DNA of 64,000 nt, from NCBI GenBank assembly GCA_034687125.1, contig JAQGBZ010000020.1:1-64000 (forward strand). Reading direction: 5' to 3'. The stretch comes from Neelides folsomi. Taxonomy: Eukaryota; Arthropoda; Collembola; Neelipleona; Neelidae. The notes under the pieces were generated by a model. That model searched no databases, had not been told where the DNA came from, and saw only the letters and a list, made by a program, of their open reading frames with translations. A program made the position numbers and the translations under genes. The number at the start of each line of letters is the position of its first letter. Position 1 is the first letter of the stretch. Below are positions 1 to 64,000 of this stretch, piece after piece.

Positions 1-199
1 ACAAGATAATATAAAATAGAACAAAAGAATACTCATTTTCCAAACTTGCCAATACATTCTACTCACCTGTTACATAATATTAGTATAAATAGTGTGTTTA
101 TCTAAATAGTGAGAAAAGTGCTATTATTATGTTTAGGAGGGAAATTCAAAAAATGAGTAATGGTTTTTTAATCCTTCCACTTCCGGTGAGTTATCTTAA

Positions 200-396
200 T
201 GACGTCATTGACAGTTGGATTTATCTCCCTTGGCGACGTCATCCACTTCACACTTTTCACACCCTGATGGGATCATTTGGGAGTGTAAAAACATTTTTAT
301 GAACCCTGTGATGAGCGGGAGTTAAAAATGATGAGGGAATTCACTCCGCCGTTTTGAGAGGGGGAAAAGTGAAAAAGGTGGGTTGGGAGGACGTCA
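200..396. promoter_or_regulatory. Three ACGTCA (CRE/ATF-like) sites
   Basis: TGACGTCA, the full CRE palindrome, is at 200-207; GACGTCAT at 235-242; GACGTCA at 390-396. CREB/ATF-family bZIP proteins bind this element. Three copies in under 200 bp near the window edge are notable, but no gene is adjacent, so function is open. Confidence 0.45.
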
Positions 397-3300
397 ACGT
401 GGAGGGTACGGAAATGGCCCAAATGGACCATTCACAAACAACTCAAATGTCTTATGGCCCATTCTGACCATTCAAAAAGACTTTGAACAAAAGGAGATGA
501 TTTACATCGAACCGCAACCTCAACGCGATGCCCACACAATTAACAATTAACAATTACCAAACAACATGAATGCCGCAACGGAAAGTTTCAAAAGCTCAAA
601 AGACTCAAAACATTTTGCAGTTTTCGCACAACTCGTTTTTTCGCAATTTCACTCCACGGCCACAAAAGACAAGTTTATACACTTTGTAAATCACGTTCAC
701 TTTACAATGGAAAACTACTAACACTGTACAAAACCAAGCCTTTTAAAATCTTTCCATTATTTTTAAATACCAATTTTTTTAGTTAAAGACATTTAAACTT
801 ATACACAGAAACTCTTTTAATTTTTGGTTAAAAATGTAAATGAAAATTTTAAAATCTCGGAGTAAATTTCTTGACCGTGATTCTTTGGCAGCTTGGATTG
901 AAATGACAAAGTGAAGTTTAAAGTAAGGTCTGGTCCGTTAAGTGTAAGAAACTCCGATGAGGAGGAAAAAGGGCAAATTGTAATAAATGTGTAACAAAGT
1001 TGTCAGTTTTTAACGGAGGAAGTCTTTTGTCAACTTTTGTCCTTTTGAGATGGGAAGTGCCGTTGGGTCCTTAAAATAGAAATAGGTCATCTCTACCTGG
1101 AGATCTCCATTGTCCACCTGTCTCGTCCAAAAAGAGAAAAAAGGAGAAAAGTAACTAAGCCATACATTTACGTCATTTACACATATCATCTATATCTCTT
1201 CTTTTACTGTTACTCTTTTAAAAGTCCTTTATCACCCAGTGACTTTACTCAATACATAAAAAAGATATACCATATGTATTTGTATTTACAGATACATATA
1301 CATTCTGTATATTAAGTCTTTCTATTTCTATTTGTATAAGAAAGACATATTCCGTATTTGACTTCTTTTTACATATCTTTTGTAAATATATACAATTTTG
1401 TATATGTCAATATACAAAATTGTATGTGTGATTGTTGTGTAAAGGTGATTGTAAAAACTGAGTGTTTTAACGGGAGCTGCAAAGGTAGGCCATAAAAGTG
1501 TTGATCTTGATAAGGGCCGTTTTGAAGGGTGAGGATGAAGATGTCCATAGTTTTATGACCTGACCTTCCCTCAACTTTTATAGCTTTTAAGGGAAAATAC
1601 AAATTGGGTCTACCTCATTCCAACTCAATCCGCTACTGGATAATTCACACTTTTTTAACAAGATCATACATACGAACCCAATTATAAGATTTTTTATAAA
1701 GCTGAAAATAAATTTAATTTATATTTTTTAATTTAAGTATTAATTGGAAATGTTCATAGGTTGAAATTCGTTATGTGTGGATTTAACTGATAAAATTTTT
1801 ATTAAAGATTTTATTAAAGATTATTTTAAATATAAAATTTAGTTGCGTCTGTAATGTTTTTCATATTGGAATTCATATTGTAATAGAAGAAGGTAATTTT
1901 AGTTTTTAGAAGGTGAGATTTTTAGTCTCCTGATTTTTAGTCTTTTGTTGTTTGGAAGGTGAAGGGATGTTTTTAGGTTTTGAATTTAAGTGAATGAGTC
2001 GGAGTTTCCTTTGCGTTCGGCGTCTTTGGGGTTGAGAAGGAATCGGTAAATCAAGTTAATGGGAGCTCCCTTCGTCTCCCGAGCCCTGCAGTCCTCCAAA
2101 AGTCTCTCTACAATTTTCCTTCCACAATTCACCTCCTTCGTTTCACCTCCTTCAATTTCTCTTCCTTTCCCTCCTTGGTTCTTCAAGGCCCAGTGGGAGA
2201 CTCGGAGTTAAATCCAAGGGAGTTGAAATCCAAGAGAGGAATTGAAATCCAACGGTGAAGAAGTTTAAGGATAAGCAAAAGGATAAAGGAATTTTTTATC
2301 ATTCTCTCGGTAGTTGGAGATTCCTCGTGGAGTGACACATGGTGGCTCATCCAATGGTTCAACTTGTGCATGTAAATGGCCCTCTAATGAGTCCAATAGA
2401 TCCGGACCACTCGCCCGACTCTCCCAAATGATAAAAAAGGAAGGAATTCAACGTGGAGGCGAACGACAAGACTTCCCTTTTAATTACACATTCTCAATTT
2501 CACAATTTGAGCAAAGTGGACATTGGAGATAAAAAAGGAATAAAAAATGGATAAAAACAATGGCGGCTATTCAAATGAAGAAGAAAATCATGAAAATCAT
2601 CCAACCACCTTTTAGATTCTTCAACAAGCACCTTTTGATCCTCAGCGGGAGGTTCAAATTTCAATCATCATTTTTGTCTCATTTTATTGAACATTATTTA
2701 TCATTTGGAAATTTATCTCATTTTTATGTCAAGCTCCTGGTGTTTAATTTGCTTCCTATTTAAAATTAATTCGCTTCGTATTTAAAATTAAATTATCTTA
2801 TTTCTCAATAACAAGACCGTTTTTTTTAAATAAGAGTTTAAATTGTTCTACATAGGGTTTATAAAGTTAGGACAAATAGGAATAGCGCAGTTACTATAAG
2901 AATGTCAACTTAAACAACGTAGAGAGTTCTTTTACTTAACAAATGTTCAAATTGAACTCAATTGTTTATTGCCTTTCCATTTAAAAGATATGGAAAATCA
3001 ATTCATTTTTGTAAAATTACTTAAGAAAGTTAATATAATTGCATTTAATTTTCATAGAGATACTATTCTATTTGTCCTTACTTTATAAAGGCTTTGTATT
3101 AAAAATGCTCAAATTATTTAATAAAATTATTTAATATAAAATTAATAAATGAATTTAAATTTTATTTATTGTAAAAGCATATAATGCTTTTGCTTTTATA
3201 TTATTTTCTATGCTTTTATATTATATAATTTTTATCATTTGGATCTTAATTAAGGTTAATGTTTGAGTATGTGTTTTATAGTCGTTTCACCTACTGGATA

Positions 3301-6300
3301 ATGTGGATTTGTGGGTGAAGATCCATTCACTTTTTCATGATTGTTTCTATGATAAGGGGGATTTTGAAGGGACTTTGCCTTTCTCACGCTCCTCCTAACG
3401 ACCATCTGAACAAGGGAATGACAATGAAGTCAATTCTCATCAAAACAATCACCCATTCAAAATCCACCAACATGAAAATCTTCACCCGCTCAAATCTTTT
3501 TCTTATCAAATCTCAATCCAATTCTTTAACTCTTCCAATTCCTATATAAATCCTATCAAAATCACATCCAGCTTCTATAAAAATCCTACACTACAAATCC
3601 TATACAATTCCTATACAAATCTTAGAGCGAGTTTAAAAGTTAAAGCCAATTCCTCACTGCCAACTCACTTTTAATGGGGGAAATAAATGGAAATGGGTTT
3701 TGGAATTGCTTTCTAATAAAATAACTCACATTGCACAATTCGGAGAATCTCCATGCAAAAAGATCAAATTCCTTTTATCTCCAACAGCGTCCAGTCCACG
3801 TCCAGTATTTTTTCTCTCCACTTTACACAACACATTATTTACCTTTACATTACTCACCTTTACATTATCTTTGCATTTACCTTTACTTTTACATTACTCC
3901 CCTTAGCATTATTTAGGTAATTCTTATACATCTCTTTAGCACAGTATCAAATGCACAATTATACATGAGACTTTATTTTACTTTTATTCCACTTTTGTTT
4001 TACTCAGTTTACCTGGTTTACATTCAACACGTTATTTTACCTGTGGTTTATTTTCCTTCTGCTTACAATCTCCATGTATTTGATACTTATGTTCATCCCA
4101 AATCGATTAAAATGGTTGTTGTGTCCATTTGAGGATATTTATTTTCTTAAACTTCTTATCACCTTTGTCCATAAAAATACACAGTACATAATGTTACATA
4201 TCTGTCCTTATTCTACTTATTTAGTGTTAAGAATACAATGAAGGAGTCCTGTGTGGATTTGTGATATAATGAAAGAATATAATATATATATATAATATAA
4301 CATTTACATTTATAGGTAAGTGATACAATTCTTTTTCTGTTATACAATATGTACCTGTATATGGTATATGAATGTGCGTGTATTTGAAATAGGAAAACGG
4401 ATGAGTTTGGGTCGTGTATTTAATTGGGGATTTTGAAGGGTTTTCCTTCTTGAAGTCCAAAAGGGCTTGTTGTTTTTGTCTGTTGGCCATTAGGGCGAGT
4501 GTCACCTTCGGAAGTGGCCCAAAGAGTCATTGAAAGTCGTTCCGGTCCAATTAAAATCTCCTCCAGAATTCCAACCTACTTTTTTCTCCCCGACCGGGAG
4601 CGGCTGTATGAAAAGATCTCTCTCGAAATCTCTGGGAGTGAGAGAATGGGAAAATGGTTGGAGCCAGCTGCCCAAACACTCCCCTGATTCTCCCTTTAGA
4701 GGAATAAAGGAAAGACGGAGAAACCCGTGAGAATGTTAATGATAGGCCAAACTCGAGTTTTAATTACTCTTCAGCTTCCATTCAAACTCAGACTTCTCAA
4801 AGGTCATAAATTGAATCGGGAGAAAATTACAAACCCTTTCCCTAATAGAAGTTCTCTATGAGAATTCTCTATGAAAGCTCTATAAGATGCCTATAATGCA
4901 AATCTCCATTTCCCATGCCAGGGATTCAATTTCATATTAAATTCATTTCAATGCTATATTTACTAATATGTAACTGTATACAGATCATATGATATGAGTG
5001 TAGTTCTCATATAAGAACTTGAGGAAATTTGAACAAAAGGGCATATATGAAAATGTTATAATGGAAGATCCCTTTCCGGGTCCCGGGGTTTTGAATGTGA
5101 AATGAGGGGAGGCGAATTGAAGCCGTGATTTTGGTCCCAACACACGCGGGTTGATTTACTTTCTCAATCTCCATCGTCTTCAACGTTCCGGTCGTTCTCT
5201 CTAATTAAAACGCGGGTCTTAATTGCCCTTTGAATTATTTCTTAATTAAAATTGAACATATTTATTCCATTACTCGCATGGGGATTCCTCTCATCTATAA
5301 AAGGAATGCTTACAATCTATACGTATTTTATACATTCATAGTGCTATACTATGTACATATATATATATATATGTATTAAGTACTTATGTATAATGTGATA
5401 TTCAAGTGCTACAATTGTTTATTGATGTACTTTACCAGATTAATTATCATAATTTATAATATACCTATGAAAAATATGAATGCTCCAATAAATAAATAAA
5501 TTGTGAATTCAATTAAATATTAAAGTTAAGAATATAAAACACAATTAAATAGTTACAATAGTTATTTCTTAATACAGTATCATTTACATACATTCATCAC
5601 ATTTGTTTGTGAAAGTTACAGCAGCAACAGCAACAACTCCGCTGGCGGCAAAGAAACAACAGAGCAATGGATGCTTCAGGTTTTTCCCGGATGTTGTAGC
5701 CAATAATGAAAAGAAGAACCCCTTCAACCAATCCAATTTGAGGTTGATTTTTGACCAAATTCATCCAAATTTCCTTCACAATTGACATTTCTATTTTGAA
5801 CAATATTTATAAAATTAAAATCATTTTCCAGTTAGAAGGAATAATTTTTTAACTTACCTCTACAATCAAAACTGCAGTTTGATTGAAAAGTTGAGTTATC
5901 TGATGACTTTTTGGGGTGTAGGAATTCGATCATTGAAATGCATCGCTTATTTATACTAGTCCAGCCAAGGGATGATTCATGTTGATAATGTATATATTTT
6001 TATACTGGCGCCTTTTAACTATGAAGGTATTTCAAGTGGAAATAATCTTAAAATTAACATTTGTCCACTGAATGAGCACGCATTGGAATATTTATTAAAA
6101 GGATACCTTTTACATAACTTGTGACGTGATTTTAAAGTTAGTGATTTAAAAATTGACTCATATTTGATACAATTTATTATTCTTATCGAACTTGTCTCGA
6201 TTCCTGTGAAAAATTTCTGTCATAGAAATTCATGCATATACGATGTATAGTTATGTATATTATTATTGTAAAAGATTGCTATTTATAATCTCCTATCAGA

Positions 6301-8080
6301 ATTGGATAATTTGCACAATGAGCTTTTTATCTAACCCCGACCTACACAAATAAGATTTTTGGCGCCAAATGTTTTATAATGTTGAAGAATTGCTCAGATT
6401 TTCTAAATTTCCAAACGATAAAGTTGTTATAAAGTTGATATTTTGAATTTTCTCTGTTTTTATGTAAAAGTGAGTTTGGACCGGACGTAAAATGAAAGGA
6501 GAGAATTTGTGTGTTCCCAATCAGAGATGAGAGGACTCGAGGGATTTGGTCCACTTTACCTCCAACCAATAACTTCCATACTCAATTTCATTCCTCCTGT
6601 CCACTCCGTCTGAACACAGCTCAATTTAACCATCAAAACTTAATTTCAATCCGAAGAAAATACAATTTAGGGAAACAATTTAATCTAATAACATTTACTC
6701 TATTACATGAATATAATAAGGTAACATTTTGATTTTAATTACACTGTGATATTATAAGTAATTTAATGAGTTTATGTATGTATTATGTTTTATCTTGTGT
6801 AAAGTATCGTTTTATCATGATTGTATTTTGAATGTGTATTTTAGTATATTTGTATTTAGTGTAGCATTTTGTTATTGTTTGAATGGAAAATTCTCTGTAG
6901 TGGAAGAAAGACATGAAGATGTAAATGTAATTTGGTTAATGTTCAGAACTCCCTTTCTAAATAAGGATCGAAATCCTCCCTCGGACTCAAACCAAGAATT
7001 ACGAGCTCACTCCCCAAATAACAACCAAATAGAAATACAAGCCATCCAAACCAATTTACAAAATTGGAAATATCCAAATGAAATTCATTTAAAAACTTAA
7101 ATTAAAATAGTTAATTCGCTTGTATGTTAGATATTTGAGTTTTAAGATTGGAACATTCTTATGTTCTAAAAAATTGCAATAAGTTATTAAAATATGCCAA
7201 GAGGTTCAAAGTTTAAATTATGAATTTTATTTTTTAACTTATTTCTTTTAAATTATGAATTTTGTTCTTTTGTGTAATTTGGTTTTAATTGTAAAGGATT
7301 TAAATGGTTAAGAAATTTGAAAGGGTTTGGTTCTTTTGGATTTGTCTTTTCTGTGGTTGAAGGGAGCGTCCTGATTTCTTGATTACAAACCGGACCCCAT
7401 AAATCCCATGGAGCGAAATAGCAGTGGGTTGTTTATGGGTTTGCTGCGGGGCGCGTTGTCCATAAGCAATTATGTGGCTAACGACTTTTACTCACCTTTC
7501 CCTCCTCCCTGTAAATTGGAAGCCATTAAGAAAGCTGGCTAATAAGATCCGACCACCTTCCAAGATCCAATCCCGAGAGGAAGTGAAATTATAGGTTCCC
7601 TCCAATCCACCAACCCCCATAAACAACCCACCAGACATCATTATAACTTTTTTAGTATTCCCAACATTTATCTGGCTACAATGTTCACCATCACCACCAA
7701 CACGCTGCACGTGAAATATCTAAAGGATTTATGAAGGACAAACCGGGTTGGCCCGTCGTTCTCAATCATTTTTTATTTCCTCTTCAAGATGACCCAACCT
7801 CAATTATACAAAAGACCATTTTGATATCTAACAATGCCGATCACTTATAAGAAACATATGAACACACTTTCTTATAGCTTATATAACTTCAACTTCATAC
7901 ATCTGTATGATTGTATGTATGGTAGATATGGCGTAAATTATAAAATGATTCTTGACACTATAAATTGTATAAAATTGTCAAAATAAAAGATGCTTAATAC
8001 AAGAACATATGAAAGAGAAAATGATTTATTTTATTATAAAATAAATGACATTTTTATTTATTACAAATTACATTTTTGGA

Positions 8081-8640
8081 AATTGTATTTTTTTATTTAT
8101 TGTTATTGAACTTGATCGAAATTGGAGTTTATTTGGAACTGAGTTTTTAGAAATTTATTGTAAGGGAGTTTATTGGGTTTATTTGAAGTTTTGTATTATT
8201 TTTGTCGGTGGAATGTTTTTTAGTCTTTTTGTTTTTGTGTTTGTGAATGAAAGAGGTTGGATTGTAATTAGGAAAAGTCTCATTATTATCTGCCCGCCTG
8301 ATTGCAATTTATTTTTACGACATTCTGCTCCGGCCGTGTAGAGGGCCAAATGATAATAATTACGACCTCACCTTCCACATCTGTACAAAAATGCCCCTCG
8401 CACTGCCCGAACACTTTTCCTCAAAATAATGCTCAATCCAACCCATATCATTACACGAACACGAGGAACATTAAAAACCTACAACAATGAACCAAACACG
8501 AACCTTCGCCCCAATTCCCACTCACAGACTTCAAAACACTTTACAAAAACTCAAAATGCCCAACCTGCACAATTTCAACAAATCCAAATTTTACCTCGGC
8601 TCCTTCGCTCCTTCCACGGTCTAATAAAAGGGCAAACATA
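8081..8640. other. Island with plus-strand G+T to A+C switch (clear example)
   Basis: Counted: 8101-8160 has 40 of 60 G or T; 8461-8520 has 46 of 60 A or C. The switch is near 8290-8340, where CpG-containing words cluster (CTCCGGCCGTG). Flanks are AT-rich. Because the reverse complement has the same left-to-right order, the island is compositionally symmetric about its centre although its halves are not inverted repeats. Confidence 0.7.
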
Positions 8641-8720
8641 AAAGAACAAAAAATCAAAAATTCACAAAACGGTTAATTTTCTATAATTATTTTAATTTTG
8701 TACGTATTTGTATGAATTTT

Positions 8721-11698: not shown

Positions 11699-11778
11699 TA
11701 CAGAGTGGGCCATAAGTATCTTTCTTTTTAAAATATACAATCATATAAAAAAGAAAGATACTTATGGTTCACCCTGTA
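11699..11778. mobile_element. 80-bp TA-flanked hairpin, MITE-like (Tc1/mariner-type)
   Basis: Left arm 11699-11729 and right arm 11748-11778 are inverted copies matching at 28 of 31 positions, with a perfect shared core CCATAAGTATCTTTCTTTTT. Outer ends read CAGAGTG and, inverted, CAGGGTG; each is bordered by TA, the target duplicated by IS630/Tc1/mariner transposases. The loop is about 18 nt. There is no coding capacity, so it would be non-autonomous. The size and shape also resemble a pre-miRNA hairpin; with TA borders and terminal repeats I favour a miniature element, but the two are not exclusive. Confidence 0.7.
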
Positions 11779-11949
11779 ATTACTTATGCATTCAGACCAA
11801 AAATTATACTACTACTAATTAATAAATTTCTAATTTATTCATAATTGGATATTCATAAATAATTAAGAGTGGATTTTTAATCTTTTATAGTAATTTAATA
11901 ATTATTATTTTTTTATTATTTATTTATTAATTAGAAAGCATTTGTAAAT

Positions 11950-12300
11950 AAAACATTGTTTGGGTTGAATTTCATTGTTTGGATAAGATCCTGAATGTTT
12001 TGGGTATTTGGTTGTTTTTGGAATTGTTGAGTATTATTGGTTAGGGGATGTTTTGTGAGTGTTTTTGGATAGCCGGGTCAATTGGTAATTTTGTCCTAAT
12101 GAGGGTTGTAGTCGGATGGATGTGTGTTGATGGCGGTCAGAGTCACTTCTCCTCATTACCCAATCTACTTCTTAATTGGAACTAACGGCCTACCCAAAAA
12201 TCTCAAAATACTCAATCACCTAACGACCCTTCACAAACTTCACTTCAAAACAAAAGGGCCGCCGAATTCAATAGAACTATAAAAACAAATCTCCTGCTTT
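11950..12300. other. Island with plus-strand G+T to A+C switch (strongest example)
   Basis: Counted: 12001-12060 has 51 of 60 G or T and no C at all; 12181-12240 has 45 of 60 A or C. The change occurs within about 60 bp near 12140. No long inverted repeat links the halves by eye, though short words such as TTGAGTATT recur in inverted position. Confidence 0.7.
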
Positions 12301-13200
12301 CATTCATCTAATTCCACTCAAATTACTAAAATCTGCTAACTAAATTAAATTAAATGCTCCTGTTTATAATCTGTTATTAATCTTATTAATTTAATTGCAA
12401 TTAAGTTTTTAAAAATTGGGAATTGTCTATTTAATGGGACTATAATATGCTTTTTAGTAGTTATTGATTTATATCGCAGAATTTTGTATTTTCTTTAGTT
12501 ATAGTCTTCGCTTTATTTAGTATAGCTTAAGTTTTAGTACTTATAGTATATAGAGGGTGGTTAAGGTTTTATTGGGCATATTAAAGTACATTATGAATCA
12601 AAGGAACCATTTGAGAGTTAAAGGTTGAGAAATGGTTTTTCTTTTTAGTTCTGATGTGGCGGCGGATTTGAACTTTTGCCATCAATCGGAATGGAGGGAT
12701 GTTTGAATGTTGGTTGTCTGTTTGTTTGTTCCGAGTTTGTGGAAGTTTGTGTGATGGCGGGTAGGCGGGGAGTTTGAATGATGTTTCCATTTGTTGTAGG
12801 TCTTGGAATTAATGAAGGAGATCCACTTCCCTTATTTCCTTCCCTTCTCGGATTCTCCTTAATGTCCCTTCCACTCTTTCCATTCTCAATGGGGGTTTGG
12901 GTTGCTAATGGACTTGGCCTTAAGTGTCCGCTTCCCGCTCCCCGAAATGCCCCACATAAATTCCGGCCTTCTTCCCGGCTCCGGAATTCCCCGAATAAAT
13001 AATAGGGGGAACTCGCTCGACTTCCATTATTCCCTCATCACGCTACATTGAACGCTCCCTCCTCTTTTTAATCCAACAATTCCCACGAGGGGAAACTCTC
13101 CTTTTTTTCAATTATACTCCATTTTATAAATGTGGACATAATTCAAAAATAATTAAATTCCCGCGTAAAAACAATCAGACTAAAATCCACCCTAATCTTA

Positions 13201-46189: not shown

Positions 46190-46760
46190 TTAGATTTTGA
46201 ATTTTGCTTTGAATTTTGTTCTAAAATGAATATAAATTTTGGAGAATTTTGAAAACTGTTGTAAAATGAATATCATGGAAATAAATGAATTTTGGGGAAT
46301 TTTGGGAAATAAATGAATAAATGAAAAAGTGAAACAATTTATTTTTCCAAATGGCCCTGTCATAAAAGAAGATCGTGGATTGTTGGAGAAATTCCTTGGT
46401 CATTTATTTGAGTTTGTTGTGCGGTTTCTGGCTGAATGATTTGTTTATTTGGGTTTTGTGTAGTTCTAGGGGGTTTTGGGGTAAAAGCGGGAGGAATCTC
46501 CTTGTTTTATGTTCAATTCCCCTTCGGTTTATAGTTTTTGAATGGGAGAATCTGTGAGTTGTTTGGGGTGATTCTTCGGGTGCATATGAGGAGTTTAATA
46601 CAACCATCAATTACCCAAACACTCAACCAAAGACTTTTACAATCCCAAGAGTTGTAAATGCATAAAACGATGATTCTCCGCTCATTCCACACAAAATGCC
46701 CAGAGCTCAAACAACCAAACTCAACCCAATAAGAATTCTCATCAAAATCAAAGGCCAGAT
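46190..46760. other. Island with plus-strand G+T to A+C switch near Ubx
   Basis: Counted: 46381-46440 has 44 of 60 G or T; 46681-46740 has 46 of 60 A or C. The switch is near 46560-46600. Long open frames appear on both strands here only because the skew depletes stop codons. Confidence 0.65.
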
Positions 46761-47627
46761 CTTTCACAACTTCATATTATAAAAATACATAACTCATATA
46801 AAGTCATGTATATACATATTACATGTATTGTATACAATTTCGGTTATTTGATCCAAAACCCTCCAAAACCATATTTAATTAAAAAAATTTACAGTTGGAA
46901 ATTTAAAGCTGTTTAGAAACTGTTCACCATTTTATTTTAAAAGTATCTTAAAGGAAATAAAAATAAAAATTATAGTTAAAAATAGTTAAAAATAATTAAA
47001 AGTTAAAATGTGATATGAAATTAAAACAATTAAATGAAATGTATTTTTTGATTCGTATTAATATTAAATTATTATTATTGTATAATTAATTATATAATTA
47101 ACCAATTTGTTAATTCTGAGCCCATATCTAACCTAACTATTATTATAAATATTTATAAAAACCTTATAATAAAAATAAAAAATATTTTTGTACGGTTTCA
47201 TAATTAAAATTATTAAAATCCTTTTATATGTAAATGCAATTGAGCCAAATTATTTACTCCATTTAATTCAAACTTCATTTCATTCTTAATTATCAAGTAA
47301 CGATATTACAATTATTTGTAATGTACTTGTAATGTAATTGCATATAAATTGTAAAGTGGAAAAACAGTTTTGTAGATTTTTAGCATTAGGTTTATGGAGT
47401 TTGAAAAGTTTGTTCGGCGTGACGTTGCAAGTCGCTTGGAGTGCTTTTGGTGTTGAGCCGGCGAGGAATATTTTGTTTCTGATTGGGGAACCGGAGGAAA
47501 AAGCAGATTTGGGCGCAGGGTCGAGTGAGGGCGAAGTTCCATTGGCTTCAGCTGAGCTCAACGTCATGAAATCTCCTCCTCGCGAGAGGGAAAGAATTTT
47601 AATCCCTTCAGTTTTGATCCGAAACCA

Positions 47628-47823: not shown

Positions 47824-48200
47824 AATTAAATCTCCATTTAATCTCAATTAACTCTTTGTTAATTTCACTCTTCAAAAGTTCTAAATTTCTCCCAATTTTG
47901 TCAAAAACTGTTTTTCGGCAAAAGTTCAAAAAGTGCGGATTTCTAAAGTTCATCAAATTGGGGAAATTGAGATAACATTTAAAATTGTTGTTAACAATTA
48001 ACTTTAAACAGTTGAAATTGCAAAGTGTGAGAAAGTTCAAAAATTGTTTTTAAACCTTTTTTGAAAAGTTGGAGTCAGGAAGAGAAAGTTAATAAAAGTG
48101 TATACGAAACTGAAAATATACGAGAACTTTTCGAGTCAATTAAAAGTGGAAAAACTTTTCATTTCCAATAAACCTCTTCAAACTTGTTAAAATACTCCAA

Positions 48201-48279
48201 AACATCTAACTAAAAACATTTAACTAAAACATTTAGTTAAACATTTAAACATTTAACTAAACATTTACATTAAGTTAAA
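48201..48279 (+). repeat. AACATTTAACTAA tandem array
   Basis: About six copies of AACATTTAACTAA, 12-14 bp each, with the inverted word TTAGTTAAA inside. It lies 550-620 bp before the Ubx start. Confidence 0.75.
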
Positions 48280-48598
48280 TTCGTCAAAACTTTGACTTTG
48301 TCAAATCTCAACGTATACGAAAAACTCCAATAAAAAGTTTTTATTAAAAACTTCAATAATTTTCCAACGAGCCAAATCAAATCTTTGAATCAAGTCTTTA
48401 AAAAAAGTTCAAGTTCTCGATCTCTCGAGTATCCAAAATACTCACAAAAGTTATACGACTAGTAATTAACCATTAAGACTCCATTAAACTCCATATAACC
48501 ACATTTAACTCCAGTTAGCTACACAATTAACTTTAATAAACTTAAAGTTAATAAGTCAAAGTTCAAGTTTGTTTCAAGCAATGTTCAATGGTAAAATG

Positions 48599-48827
48599 TT
48601 GAGGCGGAGGAACGGTGAAAGAAATTGGGAAGTTTCGCTCGGGGTCAACTGAGAACCAAAACTCTTAAACACTCAAAAACCCAAATCCGGCAACCAAATC
48701 CTGAAAAACGGAACTTTGTGTGTTGAAATTTTCAAATTTTGCAATTTTGCAAATTTGAAATTTTGAAATTTAGGAATATTCCAATTTTGAAAATTTGGAA
48801 TTTTGAAAATTAAAAATTTTGAAAATG
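48599..48827 (+). promoter_or_regulatory. Ubx: Probable 5' leader just upstream of the Ubx start
   Basis: From 48599 to 48824 there is no ATG on the plus strand, although the sequence is about two-thirds A+T; the last upstream ATGs are at 48581, 48588 and 48596. This fits an untranslated leader. The initiation site has A at -3 for both tandem ATGs. No TATA box or transcription start can be assigned; a GC-richer patch (48600-48655) contains TCAACT, a weak initiator-like match. Transcription start and any 5' UTR intron remain unknown. Confidence 0.5.
48729..48824 (+). repeat. Low-complexity AAATTTTG-type repeat abutting the Ubx start codon
   Basis: About 95 bp are built of drifting copies of AAATTTTG/GAAATTT, with almost no C on the plus strand, running straight into ATGATG. 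It forms the last part of the presumed 5' leader. It contains complementary runs (AAATTTT and its complement) that could pair in RNA, but no single stable hairpin stands out. Confidence 0.7.
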
Positions 48828-49398
48828 ATGAACTCATATTTCGAACAAGGGGGATTTTATGGGACGCCTTCGTCCACAGATCAATCCTACCGATTTCCGA
48901 TCGGTCTTGGGATGTCTCCTTACGCCCATCATCAGCAAACCCGGGCCCCGCAGGATTCACCTTACGACGCCACGGCCGCAGCTTGCAAACTCTACTCGTC
49001 CCAATCCCTCGGAGAATCCCAGGGCGGATACGGGAAATTGGAAAGCTGCAAAGACCAGCAAAACGGCTACAATTCCAAAGACTTGTCCATCAGCGGGAGT
49101 CTGAGCGGGAGCGGGAGCGGCAGTGGCGGAGCGGGATGGCAAAGCGGAGGTGGCGGGAGCGGAGCGAGTGCCGTGCCGGTGCGACCGGCCGTGTGCACCC
49201 CGGACGGGCGTTATGCGGGGGCGGGGCACCCGGCGGGGGCCATCGAGCCCACCAGCCCTTCAAGATCTCTCACCTCGTGGAACGCCACGTGTTCTCTCAA
49301 CAACGGCGTCGTTTCCTCTCAGACCGCGTCCCAGCTCCAGCAATCAGCCAACCATACTTTCTACCCGTGGATGGCCATTGCAGGTCAGTCCTTTATAG
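48828..49398 (+). CDS. Ubx: Ultrabithorax (Ubx) homeotic transcription factor, exon 1 (partial CDS)
   Basis: Nuclear Hox transcription factor that specifies trunk segment identity; this exon carries the N-terminal regulatory half and the Exd/Pbx-contacting hexapeptide, not the homeodomain. Seen: 185 codons to the proximal donor. Residues 1-7 MNSYFEQ, 21-24 YRFP, 27-33 LGMSPYA, 42-48 QDSPYDA, 79-85 NGYNSKD, a Gly/Ser linker at about 89-114, 117-126 PVRPAVCTPD, 151-155 WNATC, 175-185 NHTFYPWMAIA. These blocks occur in the same order in insect and crustacean Ubx. Start: two adjacent ATGs (48825, 48828) follow an in-frame TGA at 48804-48806; I take the second because Ubx proteins begin MNSYFEQ, though use of the first would add only one Met. 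GC content is far above the flanks. The interval includes the optional 15 nt 49384-49398. The homeobox exon lies beyond the window. Confidence 0.97.
49091..49170 (+). repeat. Ubx: GGGAGC/GGCGGA repeat coding the Gly/Ser linker of Ubx
   Basis: Imprecise GGGAGC-type hexamers encode alternating Ser-Gly then poly-Gly (about residues 89-114). Drosophila Ubx has a Gly-rich stretch at the same place, so this is a length-variable, probably disordered linker. It is the most GC-rich stretch of the window. Confidence 0.85.
49384..49389 (+). other. Ubx: Proximal 5' splice donor of Ubx exon 1
   Basis: CAG|GTCAGT follows directly after the codons for YPWMAIA. The intron is phase 1: one G of the next codon stays in exon 1. 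The same split after AIA is the conserved exon 1 boundary of arthropod Ubx. Use of this donor gives the shortest hexapeptide-homeodomain linker encoded by this exon. Confidence 0.8.
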
Positions 49399-49404
49399 GT
49401 AAAT
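49399..49404 (+). other. Ubx: Distal alternative 5' splice donor of Ubx exon 1
   Basis: ATAG|GTAAAT lies exactly 15 nt after the proximal donor and in the same phase, so its use would insert five residues (GQSFI) after AIA and keep the downstream frame. It is a strong donor by consensus (GTAAAT). Drosophila Ubx has a comparable pair of donors 27 nt apart that creates the optional b element. Whether both are used here needs transcripts. Confidence 0.65.
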
Positions 49405-56001: not shown

Positions 56002-56472
56002 ATTTTTAGTAAATGGATCAATAATATTGAAAGTGAATTAATTAAGTGTTGAATTGAAGAAGTTTCATTGTTGTAAACTGAGAAGATCGTTAAGGAATTT
56101 ATCTTAAAGATCATCTTCGGTATCGTTGGACCGTTTGTTGGCGTTGTTGTGGCAAGGGGCAAAAAATTGGCATGAAATTCGCGTCCCATAAATCTGGAGG
56201 TAGTAAGCTGTCGCTGAGCAACTTTGGTAAATGAGAAACACGTCGTTCGTTGCATCACACCAATTGGCCATCTAAGAACTTTATTCCCTATATGACCATG
56301 CATTCGACAATTTTCCATTTCCTCCTAAAAAGATAAAAATCTTCACAACAAGCAAAATCTCCTTTTAACATCGATGTAAAATATCTACCATATAAATTGT
56401 ATTTAATACATTGTATTTAATGCAGTAAATGTATATCGTATAGGTATTTTATACACATTTGATATATGGAGA

Positions 56473-56548
56473 TTTTACATGGGATGTATTGAAACTTTAC
56501 ATATGATGTATTGAGAATTTAAATAATTTATACAAGATGTATTGAAAC
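56473..56548 (+). repeat. GATGTATTGA repeat x3
   Basis: GATGTATTGA starts at 56483, 56505 and 56536, each preceded by a TTTACAT- or TTTATACA-like word. Unit 22-31 bp. Confidence 0.75.
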
Positions 56549-59500
56549 ATGTGCCGAAATATTTGAAAGAAAAAAAGTGAAAATGGAGAAATTGGATTTT
56601 TGAAGAAATTCAAGTTTTTGAGTTTCTTCCTCATTTTCCACTAAAAACACATTTTGTGTTTTTTTGCATGTTTCGGCCGAATGAATCTTCACTTTTCTGT
56701 TTTGCTCATTTGGTTGTGCGAAAATGGCAGATTTACGTGAATTTCTTTTTCCCTCACGATTTCTTGGCAAAAGGAGTTTAAAAGAACTTTGACAAACAAA
56801 AGTGATTGATTTACATTTCAACTTTTCAAACCACAATTCTAATTTACTTTCAGCTAAATATTTTTTTAATATATTCTTATGAATAATTAGTCTATGAATA
56901 TTTCATACATATATTTCTTACATGATAAATAATATAAATATGATGATCATGTATTAATAATGATATATATTACACAATGCACATTACATATATCCAATGG
57001 ATTTGTTATAGTGGTAAGAGCATTCAAGTTTTATGTATGCAAAGCTGGTCGTTTTTGTATTATGTAAATTGTGTGCAGTTTGGGGATTGGAAGGATTTGA
57101 AAAGGTCAATGAAATTGAATCGGATTTTAATTGCCGTTTCACTTATCCCATTAATGCCATTCAAAAATGAATTGATGAGTTTGATTGTAAATATTTCCCA
57201 TCTTGAGTTTCCACTTTGAGCCTCATAAGTCACCATGACGAGTCGCGGATTGAATAATCGTAAACAATTGAATGTAACGCGATGTAACTCGAGATCTTTT
57301 TTTGATTCCTCGAGATCAAGAAATCTTCCTTATCTTTTCAACACATAAAACCAATAAAGTCAAAAGTCAGTTTCTAATCTTGTTTAATCACCCGTATTCA
57401 ATTTCACATTATAATTATACTTTTGCAATTATTGTTACCAAGACGATTACGAATTTGTTATATATTTTTATTCGCAGTATTTAGCATTATCAATTATCGA
57501 GTGGGAATATTTGAAATTTTTTCTATATTTGTATTAATAAGGTGAATCTTGTGAATTTGAAGGGGAGAGTGACGATAAAAAAAGGGGTGAAATATTTCAT
57601 GCCATTTATTCACCCATCCAAATCTCTTTTACTTCCAACGAAAATGAGATAGGGAGAAGTGTGATATACCAAATGGTTCAAGATAATAAGAACCAATAAG
57701 AGAAACACTTTAATTCTCATATATCCATATATACATAATATAACCATATAAATACATAACTATATAATACATTCTTAAGATATTCTTATGGTTTATATGT
57801 TTGGTATTTATATGTCTATACAAAGATTCATTTCTATTTTTCGGACACATTGAGTTTTTGATATATTTGTAATGTCGGAATATGAATGTATGGTATATAT
57901 GGTATTGGTATATGGTATATTTCTATTCTGGATATATTTGAGGGCGTCCGGCACTTTTATGATTTACGCTTATCAGGAATGTCAATGGGGCAAGTTGTAA
58001 GATAGGAAAATTTGTATAGTTTATAAATGTTGGGCCATTAGTCAAAGTCTCTTTGGTTTATCGCCTTCATCTCCCCACCTTCTAATAGATGAATGGATTT
58101 GATCTGCTTCGGCTCTTAATGAAATTAAATCTCATTAGGAAATCAATGGCCCAACTCCCGTTTCCGATCCAACACATCCGAAAGCAGGGTGACAATTACT
58201 TGACAACCCTCGCGGTGTCATTTCAACTACACTTAATGGGCCATCTTGAATCTACAAAGACCTTTGGAAAGTCAACCAAAACACAAATTGTCCCTTTACA
58301 TCCCTTTTACATCCGCAACCATTATCATCATTTGGCTAAGAGCATTTTTATTTTCTTACAAAGTTACAGTATTTAGAAAAATCCCTGAATTCGCATTATT
58401 TAGTCAAGTTAAGTAAGCACTAATTTATTCGCATTTTTTAGTCTACGATAATTTTTTCATGACAGAATTTAGAATTATTAAGGCTTCCATGGCAGAATTT
58501 AGACTTATTAAAACTGTAATTTTTTATCCATTGAAGAATTTTAAATCGGATATTTAAAGAACATTTAAATAAAGCTTTTATTAAGTTGTTGTTTAAAATG
58601 GTCTGGAATTAATTAAGAGATTCATCTAGTGGTTGATAAATAGGTCTTATTTTAATTATCCTAAAAAGGGTCATATTTCCTCCTTATATGTTCTGGCGTT
58701 TAGGCGTAAGTCAGCAGGTGTATCCCGGGCTCTAAAAGAAGACGAATTCCTCCCAACGGGAATTCGAATCTGTCCAACTAATGCCTAAATTATGATAAAT
58801 TCCGGCGGGAGACGCCGGTGCCCGGCTGAGGAAATTCGGGAGGGATGAGTGCATTGCGACACCCGGAGATGGATATATCCCTATGTCCTCAAAAACACAA
58901 TTAGCTCCCATACACCAACCATCCGACCCCAAGGGAATTTTATAACAATCCCAATGTTCAAACTCCTATTAAAACTCGTATACAAACTCATACAGATCTC
59001 TGTATCTGTACTTCCCTATTACTCTCCCCACAATACTCCACAATATATTCAATATACTACACATGATGCTTCATATAATAAGCCATATGATCCTCCCTTT
59101 GATTCTCTATAGCTTTTTCTTTCCATTTGATACTTATGAACTTAAGTGATAAAAGCTTCCGTTTCTTTCAACTCTCCAATTGACTCTTTTTTAATTACTT
59201 CCGATAAACTTGTTAATTTACTTTAAATCATAATTAAATAAAATATTAAACATTTATAAATTAAAAAACAAATTACAACTGTTTAATTTTAAATTAACTG
59301 TTTAATTAACTATTTAATTAACTACATATTTAAAATTGTTAAAAATGTATGGATTATTGAAGATGTTGAGAAACTGCAAGTTCGTGTATGAAGTTCATTT
59401 GAGTGCAATTAAAGTGAGAAGATGAAATAGGGAATTGTTGGGAGAATTTCGGTCTATGGTTTTATATCTAAACCCCACAAACAACACACAGAAAGCAATG

Positions 59501-59940
59501 AATTGAAAAGTGAGGAACTTCACTGAAACTCCCATAACAAATCCCATCTATGCCGAGTCCTATCTTTTCCATATACTTTTCCTATGCTCTTCTTCTTCCC
59601 AACTCCAGTTTCTCACTTTCCCCGAAAAGACCGAAAACTCTCTCGTTGTTCAAGGAACAACGGGAGTTTGCCATATTAAAGAATTAAACTTTTTTCAACA
59701 CGGAGGAATCTCCATTAAAATCCAACGATGAGAAACTTGAACCAATTTACACCTGACACTCACCTTCACTATACCCAACCAATTTCTTAAAAACTATATT
59801 CTATTCCTTATACAATTTTCTCCCATATATTTTTGTATCTCGATAATCTGTACATATTATATAGTAGAAAATGTTCCATATTGTATATAGAAAAATCCTA
59901 TGTATTTATTATAGAAATATTGGGAGGAATTCTTAATTAT

Positions 59941-60025
59941 AGGAAAAGATCATTTTGACGTAAAAATGATCATTTTATCATTTTTGTAGAAAAGATCATT
60001 TTGACAGGAAAAGCTCATTTGAACA
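59941..60025 (+). repeat. GAAAAGATCATTTTGAC repeat, 4 copies
   Basis: GATCATTTT starts at 59948, 59968 and 59994, and CTCATTTGAAC at about 60013. Copies 1 and 3 are identical over GAAAAGATCATTTTGAC. GATC palindromes sit at each core. Confidence 0.8.
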
Positions 60026-60904
60026 TTCGGAGTGAAAATGATGATTTCGGGAAAGAAAAAGTATGTGAAATGTCTTGTAAATGTTTTCTGTGTGATTGAG
60101 ATGGGAAATGGGGTTTTTATTGTTTAGTTTGAATGTGATTGGATTTCTCTCCTTTGGTTTGTGTTTGAGTTAATTTTGTTTTGTGGAAGTGTTGATGGAA
60201 ATGCTTCATAATTGATGGGGCAAAGGGGAGAGAAATTGCGTAACTTTCAAATCTCCACATTTCCCTTCCTTTCAAACTCCCAAACTTCCAGAGATGTTTT
60301 TGAATGGGAAAATGCCCGGAGGGATTTTGGCCACCTCACCGAATTTACCCAAACTAAATTTCTCTCTTTGGCTAACACACGCGCTCCAAGCGGATTTTCC
60401 CTCCGCTTCAAATTCTCCACTTTTAACGTTTTTTAAACTTGCGTCTTTTTTAAGAACATTTAACGACTTTTAAGAATTTTTAACCATCAATAATATAAAA
60501 ACAATATAATTAAATATATTACAATTAATAATTAAATATTTAATAATTAATATACAGCAATGTTGATTATATAAAGATTTAATTGTAAGATTTTTATTAA
60601 TTAATTTGATTTTTAAGTAATTGGGAAATATAGAGTTTAGTGAGGTTTTTAAAGGGGAAGTGAAAATGATTTTTATAGACAATTCCATTTGTGGACTTCT
60701 GGTTGTAGTTGTCATTAATTAAAGGTGTAGATTCTGAGATTTGGATTTATAGGATGTGAAGGCGGGGTTTGGTCCAAATGTGAAACATCATAAGGCTTTT
60801 AAGGGAGCGGATTAAGGGAGCCCAAATTAGGATTTTTCCACGACAGAAGCAAACGGATACAATTAATGGGCATGATAAATTTTAAAGTGTCAAAAAGACC
60901 CCAC

Positions 60905-60966
60905 AGAATTAAATTCAACAAAATTCATAAAAATCTTAAAGAATTAAATTCAACGAAATCATAAAG
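60905..60966 (+). repeat. GAATTAAATTCAAC direct repeat
   Basis: GAATTAAATTCAACAAAATTCATAA at 60905 and GAATTAAATTCAACGAAATCATAA at about 60940 are 35 bp apart (read as separate short words). AT-rich spacer of intron 1. Confidence 0.75.
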
Positions 60967-61599
60967 AATAAAAAGAATTAACGCGACCAGGAATGAGACA
61001 TAACTATTAAAATTAATTTTTTATTTAATTAGTTATAATTTATTGGATAGTTGATTCGGCGTGCGGCATGAATGAAAGAGTTAATTAAGTTACAATTTAT
61101 TTCTATAGTAATAAAGCGATATTGTAGGTTGGGACTGATCAGTTGAAGTAGGTGGATTTAATGTCCAAATATTACTCACGATCTCCATGTTATTTCCATA
61201 TAAATGTATGTGAGATAAATAGGAGGTCATGTGAGGGAGTGTTTGGATCATCCCCGTCGTAAAACATTACAAACCATCCCTTTATTCCCTTTGGTTCAAA
61301 ATGATCAAAATCACCCTTAGAAACCTCTTAATGAGACGTCGGGAAAATGAAGCTCAAATTAGCTTTTAATTCAATTAAATCGCCATTTCCGCCCTCCAAA
61401 TGTCTTTATTTTGTTCCATTAAATATCTCCCTTTCTCACCTACACCAATTAGAGATAATTCAATTACCTTTCATTTCTCACCTCTACAATTTAATACCTG
61501 GATACATACCCATATATTAAGTATATTATAATACGTTTATTTTAATCCAGGTGAGAATTTTAATTATAAACTAGCGGATGAGAAACGTTCAATCAATTT

Positions 61600-61975
61600 C
61601 TTTTTACCTGACCTTAACCAGGAGCTTCATTTGAAGCCATTAACCTTTTAAGTTGTTCAAAAACGGAGTCGACATGGCTTTCCTCTTAATTCCTCATTTT
61701 ACTACTTTGAATATAAAATGAACTTCCGTTCCGTTCGCTCTAATTCTTTTGCTCCATTCACAGAGAGATATAAACAGAAACTCCATTTGAGAATAATAAA
61801 TGTCTTGAGTCTAACAGACCAGACATCATAAGGATATTCCTTAGATGTTCCGAATGCATTAAAGTCATTAAAAGAACCAATTTGATGTTTCGATAAACCT
61901 TCAGTTATTTTAATTATTTGTGCATTCTTCAATGCAAGTGAGATTATAATGGGACTATTAACCGCCATTAAAAAA
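61600..61975. promoter_or_regulatory. Mixed-composition block in intron 1; candidate enhancer
   Basis: This stretch contains CCGTTCCGTTCGCTC, CAGACCAGACATC (two AGAC words as used by SMADs) and AAGGATATTCCTT, a near-palindrome. There is no clear island skew. Drosophila Ubx has intronic enhancers (abx), but no homology can be claimed. Confidence 0.25.
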
Positions 61976-62970
61976 CATCAAAATCCCCGCTCAACCTCAA
62001 AGCATTAAAAAAAATTCAAAAATTCAAAATTCAAAAAATATAAAATTCAAAAAATACTACAAAATATATAAAATCTTTGAAATTCAAAGTATAAAAATGT
62101 ATTAAATATGTTGTATATTTTATAGTAAATTAAATATATGATACAATAATTGTATTTGGATATATTTTATATTTCTGAGTGTTGAGTTTTTGAATATTGT
62201 GTGGGGATATAAATTTTAGTAGTCATTGGAGCGTTGGAATTCCTTGGTCTTCTTCTATGGAGTCATCGATCAAACGTCGAGCGAGTCCTTTAGCTATCAT
62301 CATCCTGATCACGCATGCATGGCCCCAACTCAGCCGACTGGTTTATTCTCAAGGCAACTCTCTGCACAAACTCACCTGGAGAAACCCATTAATATTATAC
62401 CATTAAGATCACACAGACCTCATACTACTTACCTATACTACCTATATTTAACACACTTCATATAAACTCACGCCTATACTTATATTTTAGAATATTATAT
62501 TATAGCTATTCTGAATATTTTAGCTAATCTCTATAAAGTATTATAGAATTATAGCTAGTACTTGTATTATATAGTATTTAGTTATATAATATAGTTATAA
62601 TGCTCATATTAAGAATATTATAATGTGAAGATTTTGGAACGTGTGGATTGTGAAGGAGCGACGGAATGAAATTTGTGATTCTGGACGGGGCGTCGAGTTG
62701 TATCGAATTCGCCTCCCATCCCTCCCACTTTTTTTTATTTCTTTAGAAGAAATTAAGTCATTTGGTCCATTATTTCCACCAGGTAGTTGGCCAAGCGAGG
62801 AGCTAATTTTTATTGGCCGAAGATTACCATCACTTTTCTCAAGCCCAGAGCCAATTCCAATCCAAATTAGCAGGTTCATCCGATATACATTAAACTTAAA
62901 CCAAACCATCATTTTACGACCCTGCGAAAAAAAACTTTAGGACTAAATTATCATTTCATATTTTATAGCC

Positions 62971-63134
62971 TTTATCTAAATCATGCCAAATCATCCTTAA
63001 CATATTAATCTAAATAATGCCAAATCGTTCCTAATCTAAATAATGCGAATCGCGTTTAAATTTATCTAAAATAATGCGAATCATAATCTTAATCTAAATA
63101 ATGCAAATCATGTTTATCTTAACAAAATAATGCT
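62971..63134 (+). promoter_or_regulatory. Tandem array of octamer-like ATGCNAAT sites in intron 1
   Basis: Six units of 26-34 bp, each TAATCTAAATA plus an octamer-like core: ATGCCAAATC at 62983 and 63017, ATGCGAATC at 63043 and 63074, ATGCAAATC at 63101, and a partial ATGC at 63130. ATGCAAAT is the binding site of POU-domain factors (Pdm/Oct type); ATGCGAAT is a near variant. The linker varies more than the core. Whether it is a regulatory array or an ordinary decayed minisatellite cannot be decided here. Confidence 0.6.
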
Positions 63135-64000
63135 TTTTAAAAAGGGCGGTAAGATTTACAAAATTTGGTTAATTTGTATAATAAATTAAGGAAATGAGAT
63201 TTTTATTGTCATTACGGCAAAGGTGTTTAAATTCTTAGATTTTTCGCAGTCTTGATAAGTGAATTTTGTTTGTGAAGCTGGGAATTTTCTTTTATGACCA
63301 AACGAGTTTTGATTCTGTTTGTTTATTGGTCTTAGATTGTGATTAATTTGACTCTCTGAGTCCTCAACGACTTTCCAACCCCAAGCGTACTTTTTAATTG
63401 AGCCACTTGTTCATTTCATTGCCATTTGTACTCATTCAACTTCTTAAATCTCAGACATAAAACCAATTTAATTCTTCTTTGTCTTCTTAACCTCAGCTTA
63501 AGCTCATAAACTTCATCCTCAAATTGTCACCTTGAAATTTTTAATCGAGGTGTGAACAACCAGGCACATTTAAAAAAAATAACCAATATTAAAAAACTAC
63601 AGATTAAATAATTACAGATTTCTGCTTGTGAAACAATTTTAAAAATAATGATTATTTAATTATTTAATAATCATTATTTAATATCTTTTAATTGATATTT
63701 AAGTTGTAATTGTAAATTGTTAGTAGAACTTAATTGTTGTTAAGAAATGAATGAAAGTCTGTGAATTTAAATTGATCGTAATATTGTGATTGAATTGGCT
63801 GAGTCTGGAACCTCCCTTTTGATCCTGGAGGAATCCGAGTTGCTAAAACAAGTTTTTATTCTCAATTTTTTCTTCCCCCGGAGTGGCGAGGTGAGGAGTT
63901 TAATAATACCTTCCTTCTTCACAATCTTCTTCTCCCACACCACACAACAACGAACCAACTAACAATTTCACATCAACTCAAAAACCTCCAGCCCAAACTC

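Follow-up and report, generated by a model that had tools for sequence, protein, structure and literature searches.

Genomes hold GT-rich and AC-rich regions of 30-1000 nt, a property described as mid-range inhomogeneity (MRI) in the available portions of two studies (PMC2442090, PMC2779198). In T. brucei, GT-rich coding strands at start regions drive directional transcription, according to the accessible part of the report (PMC5579346), and bidirectional initiation is presented as pervasive at accessible chromatin in the available text of a further study (PMC5747114). Among the matches listed for open-licence PMC papers, titles and abstract beginnings contain no description of a one-way cycle from GT-rich to AC-rich DNA such as the one reported here.

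The window, by which we mean the entire stretch of 64,000 nucleotides that was analysed, covers the non-coding DNA around a Hox gene, in which base composition rises and falls about every 0.65 kb, nearly always in the same order. It is DNA of a Hox cluster, almost free of repeats and presumably old and regulatory. The one-way composition pattern is real and unusual. We followed it with two tracks that have no bases in common, C/(C+T) and G/(A+G), and a decoding model without direction, distinguishing AT-rich valleys (V), GT-rich flanks (K), GC-richer cores, and AC-rich flanks (M). On each strand, the C share of pyrimidines alternates between about 0.17 and about 0.45, the C-poor and C-rich stretches having medians of 294 and 305 bp, respectively, and the plus- and minus-strand waves are offset by about 150 bp, nearly always in the same sense. 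This offset generates the cycle V, K, core, M, V: both strands are C-poor in V, the plus strand in K, neither in the core, and the minus strand in M.

1..64000, no strand assigned: chain of V, K, core and M stretches, about 90 cycles (five-state HMM and two-track decode)

In the two-track decode of the window, 327 of 358 state changes follow this order and 31 run in reverse. Rotation of one track as a null model (n=2000) gave a forward share of 0.500 (SD 0.041, maximum 0.626), order-3 Markov simulations (n=4) yielded forward and reverse changes at about 50:50, and reversing the window without complementing it turned the two-track count into 31:327. The 91 core passages of the same decode include 79 of the type K-core-M and 5 of the type M-core-K, while in a strand-symmetric five-state HMM all 90 valley exits lead to K and all 90 valley entries come from M. 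A preliminary description of this DNA, which had noticed no island of the opposite order, was thus right about a strong direction, and the pattern is even stronger than it had claimed, but it missed the occasional M-core-K passage. It had also named equal numbers of the two kinds of change as an argument against the pattern; steps above 3 SD (w=200) are indeed similarly frequent when counted by sign alone (66 GT-to-AC vs 71 AC-to-GT), but the order is nearly always one-way once cores and valleys are separated. The counts are equal because the two step types alternate, which renders counting by sign uninformative, and we discarded it. What differs is the setting: the GC-richer cores contain the steps from GT to AC, and the AT-rich valleys those from AC to GT. 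Against 60 dinucleotide shuffles, the comparison originally suggested, the spread (SD) of local G+T steps at 200-300 bp is larger by a factor of 2.2-2.3. Islands measure 447 bp (median of 153 islands from the window and loci L002-L006) and cores in the window are spaced at a median of 656 bp, in keeping with first estimates of 300-600 bp and 0.5-1 kb. The switches initially singled out at 8.3, 12.1 and 46.6 kb rank among the largest GT-to-AC steps, and the base counts given for the second are exact: A9 C0 G21 T30 at 12001-12060 (51/60 G+T) and A24 C21 G3 T12 at 12181-12240 (45/60 A+C).

8073..8670, no strand assigned: example island with K at 8073-8269, core at 8270-8345 and M at 8346-8670 (five-state decode; largest GT-to-AC step, w=300; sequence read)
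8671..8695, no strand assigned: example valley with an AC-to-GT step (largest such step at both w=200 and w=300, position 8670)
11956..12360, no strand assigned: the island of the base counts, with K from 11956, core at about 12132-12144 and M to 12360 (five-state and two-track decodes)
46368..46871, no strand assigned: sharp switch with K at 46368-46587, a core of 6 bp and M at 46594-46871 (five-state decode; largest GT-to-AC step, w=200)

The last of these is almost coreless, being K-P-M by the five-state decode and absent from the two-track list of K-core-M passages.

The oscillation of either strand has a period of about 600 bp, and the two strands are a quarter of a period out of step. 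For both tracks, autocorrelation traces a damped wave with a minimum at about 280 bp and a second peak at about 610 bp. The G-to-C cross-correlation shows quadrature, with values of +0.054 at +140 and -0.043 at -90, whereas the purine/pyrimidine track has no correlation larger than 0.005 in either sense at distances above 75 bp. Cycle length has a CV of 0.42 (n=151) and successive cycles are uncorrelated (rho 0.03). The second autocorrelation peak, scaled by the estimated zero-lag amplitude, reaches about 0.13 vs 0.04-0.06 in simulations with independent segment lengths; the regularity of the cycle is at most somewhat above that of independent segments. Given a spacing of about 650 bp, skew around replication origins is unlikely as a cause.

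Each island is a one-directional compositional dyad, present on either side of the Ubx exon as first recognised, and decayed foldback elements had been put forward as its source. Single arms do align impressively at 8.3 kb, with 12.1 kb also tempting. Arms of the same island score 20.2 vs 18.9 after dinucleotide shuffling, with 24 of 153 islands above the 95th percentile of their own shuffles (about 8 expected), and slightly exceed arms taken from other islands (20.2 vs 19.2, z 3.5, mean percentile 0.59). However, when left arms were compared with the reverse complement of right arms, own pairs scored 32.4, adjacent islands 31.0, and all others 30.2; the own pair was the best of its row and column in 0, 1 and 0 of 153 cases under three scorings, where 0.5 is expected; and a composition-free purine/pyrimidine palindrome score was 11.8 in cores and 11.1 in valleys, against 11.6 and 11.2 for a mirror control (window only). 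Since own arms do not stand out against those of other islands, decayed foldback or inverted-repeat transposons are refuted as a general cause and extremely improbable, although a minority of islands could hold old inverted repeats. No repeat family among the 153 islands was found by blastn (dust on), which returned 8 distinct island pairs (15/153 islands) that match over 19-79 bp at E<1e-3. One palindromic element lies outside the pattern:

11700..11782, no strand assigned: palindromic MITE-like element (inverted self-match of 81% over 81 bp; copies in L007, L021 and L013)

In the fitted emissions, boundaries mainly alter one transition pair each. From core to K, it is mainly T that replaces C (C falls from.20 to.07 and T rises from.30 to.41), and from V to K mainly G that replaces A (A falls from.40 to.28 and G rises from.10 to.24). 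The pattern therefore resembles strand-specific loss of cytosine. Whatever its neighbours (16 of 16 contexts), C is rarer in K than in M, with odds ratios of 1.5-6.4 and the weakest effect next to another C, the M-versus-K odds ratio for C being 4.8 before G, 4.7 before A, 4.4 before T, and 2.3 before C. Lacking a CpG or TC preference, the loss is not methylation- or APOBEC-like, and decay by CpG methylation as well as TC-type deamination were rejected. We consider it moderately likely that the pattern belongs to the class of strand-specific mutation at stable sites. As a rival explanation, recurrent breaks or nicks in the cores could be followed by 5' resection, baring the plus strand to the left and the minus strand to the right, where C would deaminate. 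Such ends would predict a C-poor plus strand left of the core and a C-poor minus strand right of it, and a median C-poor tract of 294 bp is compatible with them. However, the core is C-poor on neither strand, the loss of C within K does not peak beside the core (C/(C+T) of 0.13 on the valley side vs 0.22 on the core side), and one site per ~650 bp would be very dense; we regard DNA ends as a very unlikely source.

The explanation that we favour, albeit with less than even confidence, is strand-biased C-to-T mutation beside short divergent transcripts born in the valleys. On this reading, the pattern would record strand-specific C-to-T mutation in DNA that becomes single-stranded again and again in the germ line. 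Short divergent transcripts may begin in AT-rich valleys and extend a few hundred bases into K and M; the template strand would undergo repair, and the non-template strand would be left exposed. The cores, which are GC-richer, could represent the ends of opposed short transcripts or constrained regulatory elements, and the positions of the sites would need to be stable over long times. Short divergent transcription from AT-rich valleys as the specific source is the likeliest candidate but itself a tentative, rather doubtful proposition. In vertebrate work, the non-template strand usually shows C-to-T change and an excess of G+T. For this reason, divergent starts are expected in the AC-to-GT valleys and not at island centres. 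Starts at the centres would leave an A+C-rich RNA-like strand, the type of skew that the accessible part of PMC555766 reports for plants and fungi. The start of the Ubx-like gene bears on this choice:

48825..49400, plus strand: first coding exon of a Ubx-like gene, end approximate (ORF list and sequence)
48167..48714, plus strand: AC-rich stretch on the sense strand, ending about 110 bp before the Ubx start codon (five-state decode and sequence)

We take the gene to be Ubx-like from the MNSYFEQGGFYG start and the FYPWM motif of this exon, and its homeobox is presumed to lie at C20:97239-97409. The AC-rich stretch consists of two M segments, 48167-48589 and 48645-48714, separated by a short AG/CT run, about 550 bp in all, and is probably the leader of the gene. 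Its composition fits starts at island centres and is opposite to the valley-start prediction. The GC-richer core could thus be an accessible enhancer- or promoter-like element from which RNA starts both ways, the RNA-like strand becoming or being kept richer in C than G and in A than T. C>G skew at the transcription start sites of plants and some fungi, as far as the available text goes (PMC555766), would agree with this, as would the alternating AG and CT blocks of the cores in the five-state decode and the G share, which peaks at 0.53 in K adjoining the core. However, the Ubx-like gene is a single case, translation may itself keep leaders poor in G, the skews given for Drosophila and human in the same source are only slight and partly opposite (PMC555766), and the sign of mutation would be opposite to the usual one. 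Initiation from the cores is unlikely in our view.

With respect to valley-born transcripts, net strand bias was not found in the ~48-kb Ubx intron (c 0.326, g 0.327), and ordinary transcription therefore leaves no such trace there. A caveat is that Ubx may not be expressed in the germ line at all. DNA upstream of Ubx is likewise without net bias (c 0.315, g 0.320), and 19.5 kb sampled past the homeobox differ slightly (c 0.308, g 0.323). Intron-like gaps of other genes (n=11) show a weak G+T excess, 1668 GT and 1536 AC of 3204 bases. The cycle order is present in the 5' flanks of 20 genes (19 Ras-family, 1 actin; 41:25), and clear polarity relative to the gene was not seen in these flanks, 12 of which have a candidate start codon while the other 8 were aligned at a set position. 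Neither orientation is clearly enriched in motifs for starts, splicing, poly(A), or factors. Purine content is itself over-dispersed in 150-bp windows (2.9 vs 5.5 and 5.3 for the tracks). Taken against the favoured explanation are the unbiased Ubx intron, the weak intron-gap excess, the AC-rich probable Ubx leader, the lack of clear flank polarity and of clear motif enrichment, and the over-dispersed purines.

Within the roughly 0.3 Mb analysed, of a 75-Mb genome, the pattern continues in sampled stretches of the Hox contig up to 263 kb and is present beside some other homeobox genes (L035, L029); at the homeobox flanks L028, L033 and L034 it was missing. In other loci, it is weak but detectable: 16 loci at arbitrary places on other contigs have the same direction at 260:194, which the rotation null reaches in 1/1000, and G+T dispersion in 150-bp windows is 4.5 in the Hox DNA vs 1.6 in L007-L019. 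Selection on composition could produce such a distribution, if regulatory modules need a GC-rich core with oriented GT and AC flanks that position nucleosomes, give initiation a direction, or bring about early termination. The strength of the pattern in the Hox contig and some homeobox flanks, and its weakness in most other loci, agree with this idea, and GT-rich elements are able to direct transcription in T. brucei (PMC5579346, accessible part), just as fixation bias helps mid-range base-content regions in human (PMC2779198, accessible part). However, selection would have to act on a large share of bases across hundreds of kb, a motif or fixed boundary sequence was not found, and other homeobox flanks are without the pattern; we consider selection possible, yet doubtful. 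Compatible with other readings is the proposal that the cycle is a general, previously unremarked feature of unique insect non-coding DNA and not peculiar to this genome, for which the excess in the 16 arbitrary loci argues and to which we give somewhat less than an even chance. Strand-biased mutation beside valley-born transcripts might also sustain itself, although we rate this version as improbable: AT-rich patches would start short divergent transcripts, and displaced strands would lose C, sharpening patches and flanks, until stable non-coding DNA had settled into a cycle that runs one way and has an intrinsic wavelength of ~600 bp. In that case, composition alone would preserve, down to single bases, the site and direction of germ-line polymerases (or resected ends) over very long times.

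If the pattern is mutational, the strand-specific history of small elements in old non-coding DNA can be read from composition at a resolution of ~150 bp, with no need for RNA or chromatin data, and neutral models ignoring strand and local composition would be wrong for such DNA. If it is selected, regulatory DNA would follow a directional composition grammar invisible to motif searches. Under either cause, the pattern could simply explain why misleading open frames occur in pairs on the two strands, as the AC-rich strand is T-poor and few stop codons are expected in it.

Transcription-associated strand asymmetry is normally aligned to genes. The present pattern shares its composition axis and type of transition, as given in the available part of PMC10030826; unlike in that system, the Ubx intron itself is without net bias. 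Similar to MRI, the window has an excess of GT-rich and AC-rich stretches on the same scale, in non-coding DNA, and above short-range random models (step SD 2.2-2.3 times shuffles; G+T dispersion 4.5 vs 1.6). However, the accessible text on MRI mentions no order of regions, whereas here the order is fixed and GC content stands in a quarter-period relation to it (PMC2442090, PMC2779198). The GC skew at plant and fungal transcription start sites resembles the pattern in its strand-specific bias of C vs G on a ~100-bp scale beside a fixed site, but, as described in the part available (PMC555766), it is one skew at one gene start, while here the bias is two-sided and recurs every ~650 bp in gene-free DNA. 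The dispersed promoters of T. brucei have a GT-rich coding strand at start regions, and a divergent promoter of this kind would read AC and then GT, as M-V-K does. In contrast to those promoters, which start long polycistronic arrays according to the accessible portion of the report (PMC5579346), the units described here belong to an animal Hox cluster and follow one another at intervals of hundreds of bp.

Base composition along the window follows two C-content waves, one per strand, which lie a quarter period apart and keep the same sense nearly always: an AT-rich valley gives way to a G+T-rich flank, a GC-richer core, an A+C-rich flank and the next valley (the forward order; flank, core and flank form an island). 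We followed the waves as C/(C+T) and G/(A+G), which use disjoint bases and were each decoded with the same two-state model lacking a directional parameter (its levels, 0.174 and 0.448, came from a fit to the window plus L002-L006, five further stretches of the same contig, C20, up to 210 kb). Joint state changes ran forward in 327 of 358 cases in the window and in 569 of 633 over 114 kb (63 reverse, one diagonal). Rotating one track against the other 2000 times in the window gave a forward share of 0.500 (SD 0.041, maximum 0.626), order-3 Markov simulations decoded in the same way showed no direction bias, with forward and reverse changes balanced, and the reversed window returned the mirror-image result. 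Paired high-G and high-C blocks were offset by a median of 146 bp at their left edges (positive in 131/144) and 152 bp at their right edges (129/144). Over 120 kb, the autocorrelation of either track crosses zero near 155 bp, with a minimum near 280 bp and a second peak near 610 bp; the cross-correlation of the tracks has its maximum at about +150 bp and its minimum at about -95 bp, and purine/pyrimidine correlation beyond 75 bp stays within 0.005 of zero.

The preliminary description had reported switches from G+T-rich to A+C-rich DNA and none in the opposite order. Its two base counts (12001-12060 and 12181-12240) were exact on recount, and the steps exceed chance: at 200-300 bp, local G+T steps spread 2.2-2.3 times as widely as in dinucleotide shuffles. 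A single direction prevails in passages through cores, of which 79 in the window lead from G+T-rich to A+C-rich flanks and 5 the other way (3 have G+T-rich and 4 A+C-rich flanks on both sides); valleys are likewise crossed from A+C-rich to G+T-rich flanks 79 times and in the opposite sense 5 times (3 between A+C-rich and 1 between G+T-rich flanks). The absence of opposite steps does not hold: by sign alone both are equally common (66 vs 71 at w=200), because steps alternate, and it is their position that matters. Single-base cross-correlation at 50-250 bp in the window is +0.021 for G then C and -0.016 for C then G; the difference is 0.031 to 0.051 in 6/6 tested 10-kb window blocks and in 5/5 of L002-L006, and -0.002 to 0.019 in 13 other stretches (L007-L019, the first being C20 at 400 kb).

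Hidden Markov models of three, four and five (strand-symmetric) states, trained on the window from rough emission guesses with transitions not imposed, all learned the same one-way cycle, with cores composed of alternating AG-rich and CT-rich blocks. In the five-state decoding of the window, median lengths were 187 bp for valleys, 135 bp for G+T-rich and 136 bp for A+C-rich flanks, and valleys were left to G+T-rich flanks in 90/90 cases and entered from A+C-rich flanks in 90/90. This model preferred 2-kb tiles over their reversed, uncomplemented copies in 57/57 Hox-region tiles, 25 of them outside the training set, by a mean of 9.2 nats/kb. In L007-L019 the original was preferred in 50/65 tiles with a mean of locus means of 1.7, which alone is no evidence, since the window in shuffled 50-bp blocks still reached 1.3.

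According to the emissions, each boundary is dominated by one transition pair: A to G from valley to G+T-rich flank, T to C into the core, G to A out of it, and C to T from A+C-rich flank to valley. This is the trace expected of strand-specific C/T transitions. In 150-bp windows C/(C+T) and G/(A+G) are over-dispersed 5.5- and 5.3-fold and purine content 2.9-fold; the latter counts against a purely transitional view and is attributed to short AG/CT blocks.

A repeat family was rejected as the source of the islands, as 8 pairs among the 153 in the window and L002-L006 shared matches, of 19-79 bp. Decayed foldback elements, suggested earlier, were rejected as the general cause: an island's left arm matched the reverse complement of its own right arm barely better than the arms of other islands. 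Individual arm alignments are striking, and own arms score slightly above shuffled ones. A strand poor in T, and hence in stop codons, would account for the paired open frames remarked on earlier. One MITE-like palindromic element is the sole window sequence matching other sampled loci at E<=1e-8 (dust on):

11700-11782: MITE-like element, about 80 bp, inverted self-match 81%
L007:8293-8385, L021:2089-2170 and L013:4437-4519: its copies in other sampled loci

A/T-dinucleotide power has a notch at 10.3-10.5 bp in the window, L002-L006 and sampled loci L020 and L021 (517 and 467, vs 724-789 at 9-9.6 bp and 692-725 at 12-13 bp), weaker in L007-L019; an order-4 Markov simulation gave 583-711 from 9 to 13 bp. 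The notch is a deficit of helically phased A/T, which is usually in excess in nucleosomal DNA. In the window and other Hox loci, runs of eight A on the A-rich strand of the flanks number 9 vs 64 expected under an order-2 model, and A/T runs of at least eight in the window 14 vs 45 in one simulation.

The genome comprises 75.1 Mb in 840 contigs, of which the window is C20:1-64000, and these features were noted:

48825 to about 49400, within the window: coding exon 1 of a Ubx-like gene
C20:97239-382110, plus strand: about eight homeobox exons that make up a Hox cluster, from homeodomain matches
C13:278472-282011: open frames given as 1984 codons that contain three homeodomain matches, with a fourth nearby

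We take the window gene to be Ubx-like from its start, MNSYFEQGGFYG, and FYPWM motif; a simple stretch of AAATTTTG type (48720-48825) lies immediately 5' of its start codon. Homeodomain matches above the Pfam cut-off lie at 97, 188, 239, 254, 300, 339, 361 and 382 kb of the 434-kb C20, on the plus strand throughout, and C20 is therefore a Hox cluster; an extra short match at 361.2 kb is probably part of the gene at 361 kb. The match at 97 kb is presumably the homeobox of the window's gene, and if so the Ubx intron spans ~48 kb. The arrangement on C13 resembles that of zfh-type genes.

Forward and reverse joint state changes by locus group, with the number of 1000 rotations reaching the observed share
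Window: 327:31; 0/1000
Seven other C20 loci at 64-263 kb, five of them also in the fit set of the non-directional levels: 278:35; 0/1000
C20 at 300, 350 and 400 kb: 51:24; 9/1000
Sixteen arbitrarily placed loci on other contigs, 132 kb, homeobox genes not screened out: 260:194; 1/1000
Other homeobox exons, eight flanking stretches of 3 kb each: 61:31; 6/1000
Twenty 1-kb gene 5' flanks: 41:25; 2/1000

The order of the cycle is therefore widespread, yet strong in some DNA only, the Hox contig foremost. The homeobox flanks are uneven: L032, which contains coding exons, gave 15:3, L035 13:2, L031 9:4, L029 8:3, L030 5:3, L034 3:3, L033 3:4 and L028 5:9. The stretch L009 is also strong (34:10), and inspection of its six longest open frames, made without a family search, recognised no gene.

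We propose that strand-specific C to T change, presumably at stable sites, would underlie both waves, and that its source may be divergent transcription centred on the valleys, for which the mutational sign would be the usual one. Neither a CpG nor a TC preference was found for the C loss, nor a net strand bias in the Ubx intron; intron-like gaps of other genes show little. Divergent transcription centred on the cores would agree with the AC-rich stretch 5' of the Ubx start codon but requires the plant and fungal skew sign (PMC555766), and we consider it unlikely. The motifs tested showed no clear enrichment in either orientation. Resected DNA ends at the cores would give the correct sign but the wrong profile and are highly improbable. 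Selection is a possible cause, though not the favoured one.

The review PMC10030826, in its available text, and the matches listed from open-licence PMC literature contain no comparable cycle; the one described here may be lineage-specific or general. In T. brucei, the regions where transcription starts are GT-rich and offer an analogue of divergent transcription centred on valleys (PMC5579346). Mid-range inhomogeneity also includes GT-rich and AC-rich regions; the available parts of PMC2442090 and PMC2779198 do not mention their order, whereas the regions of the window follow one another in a fixed order.
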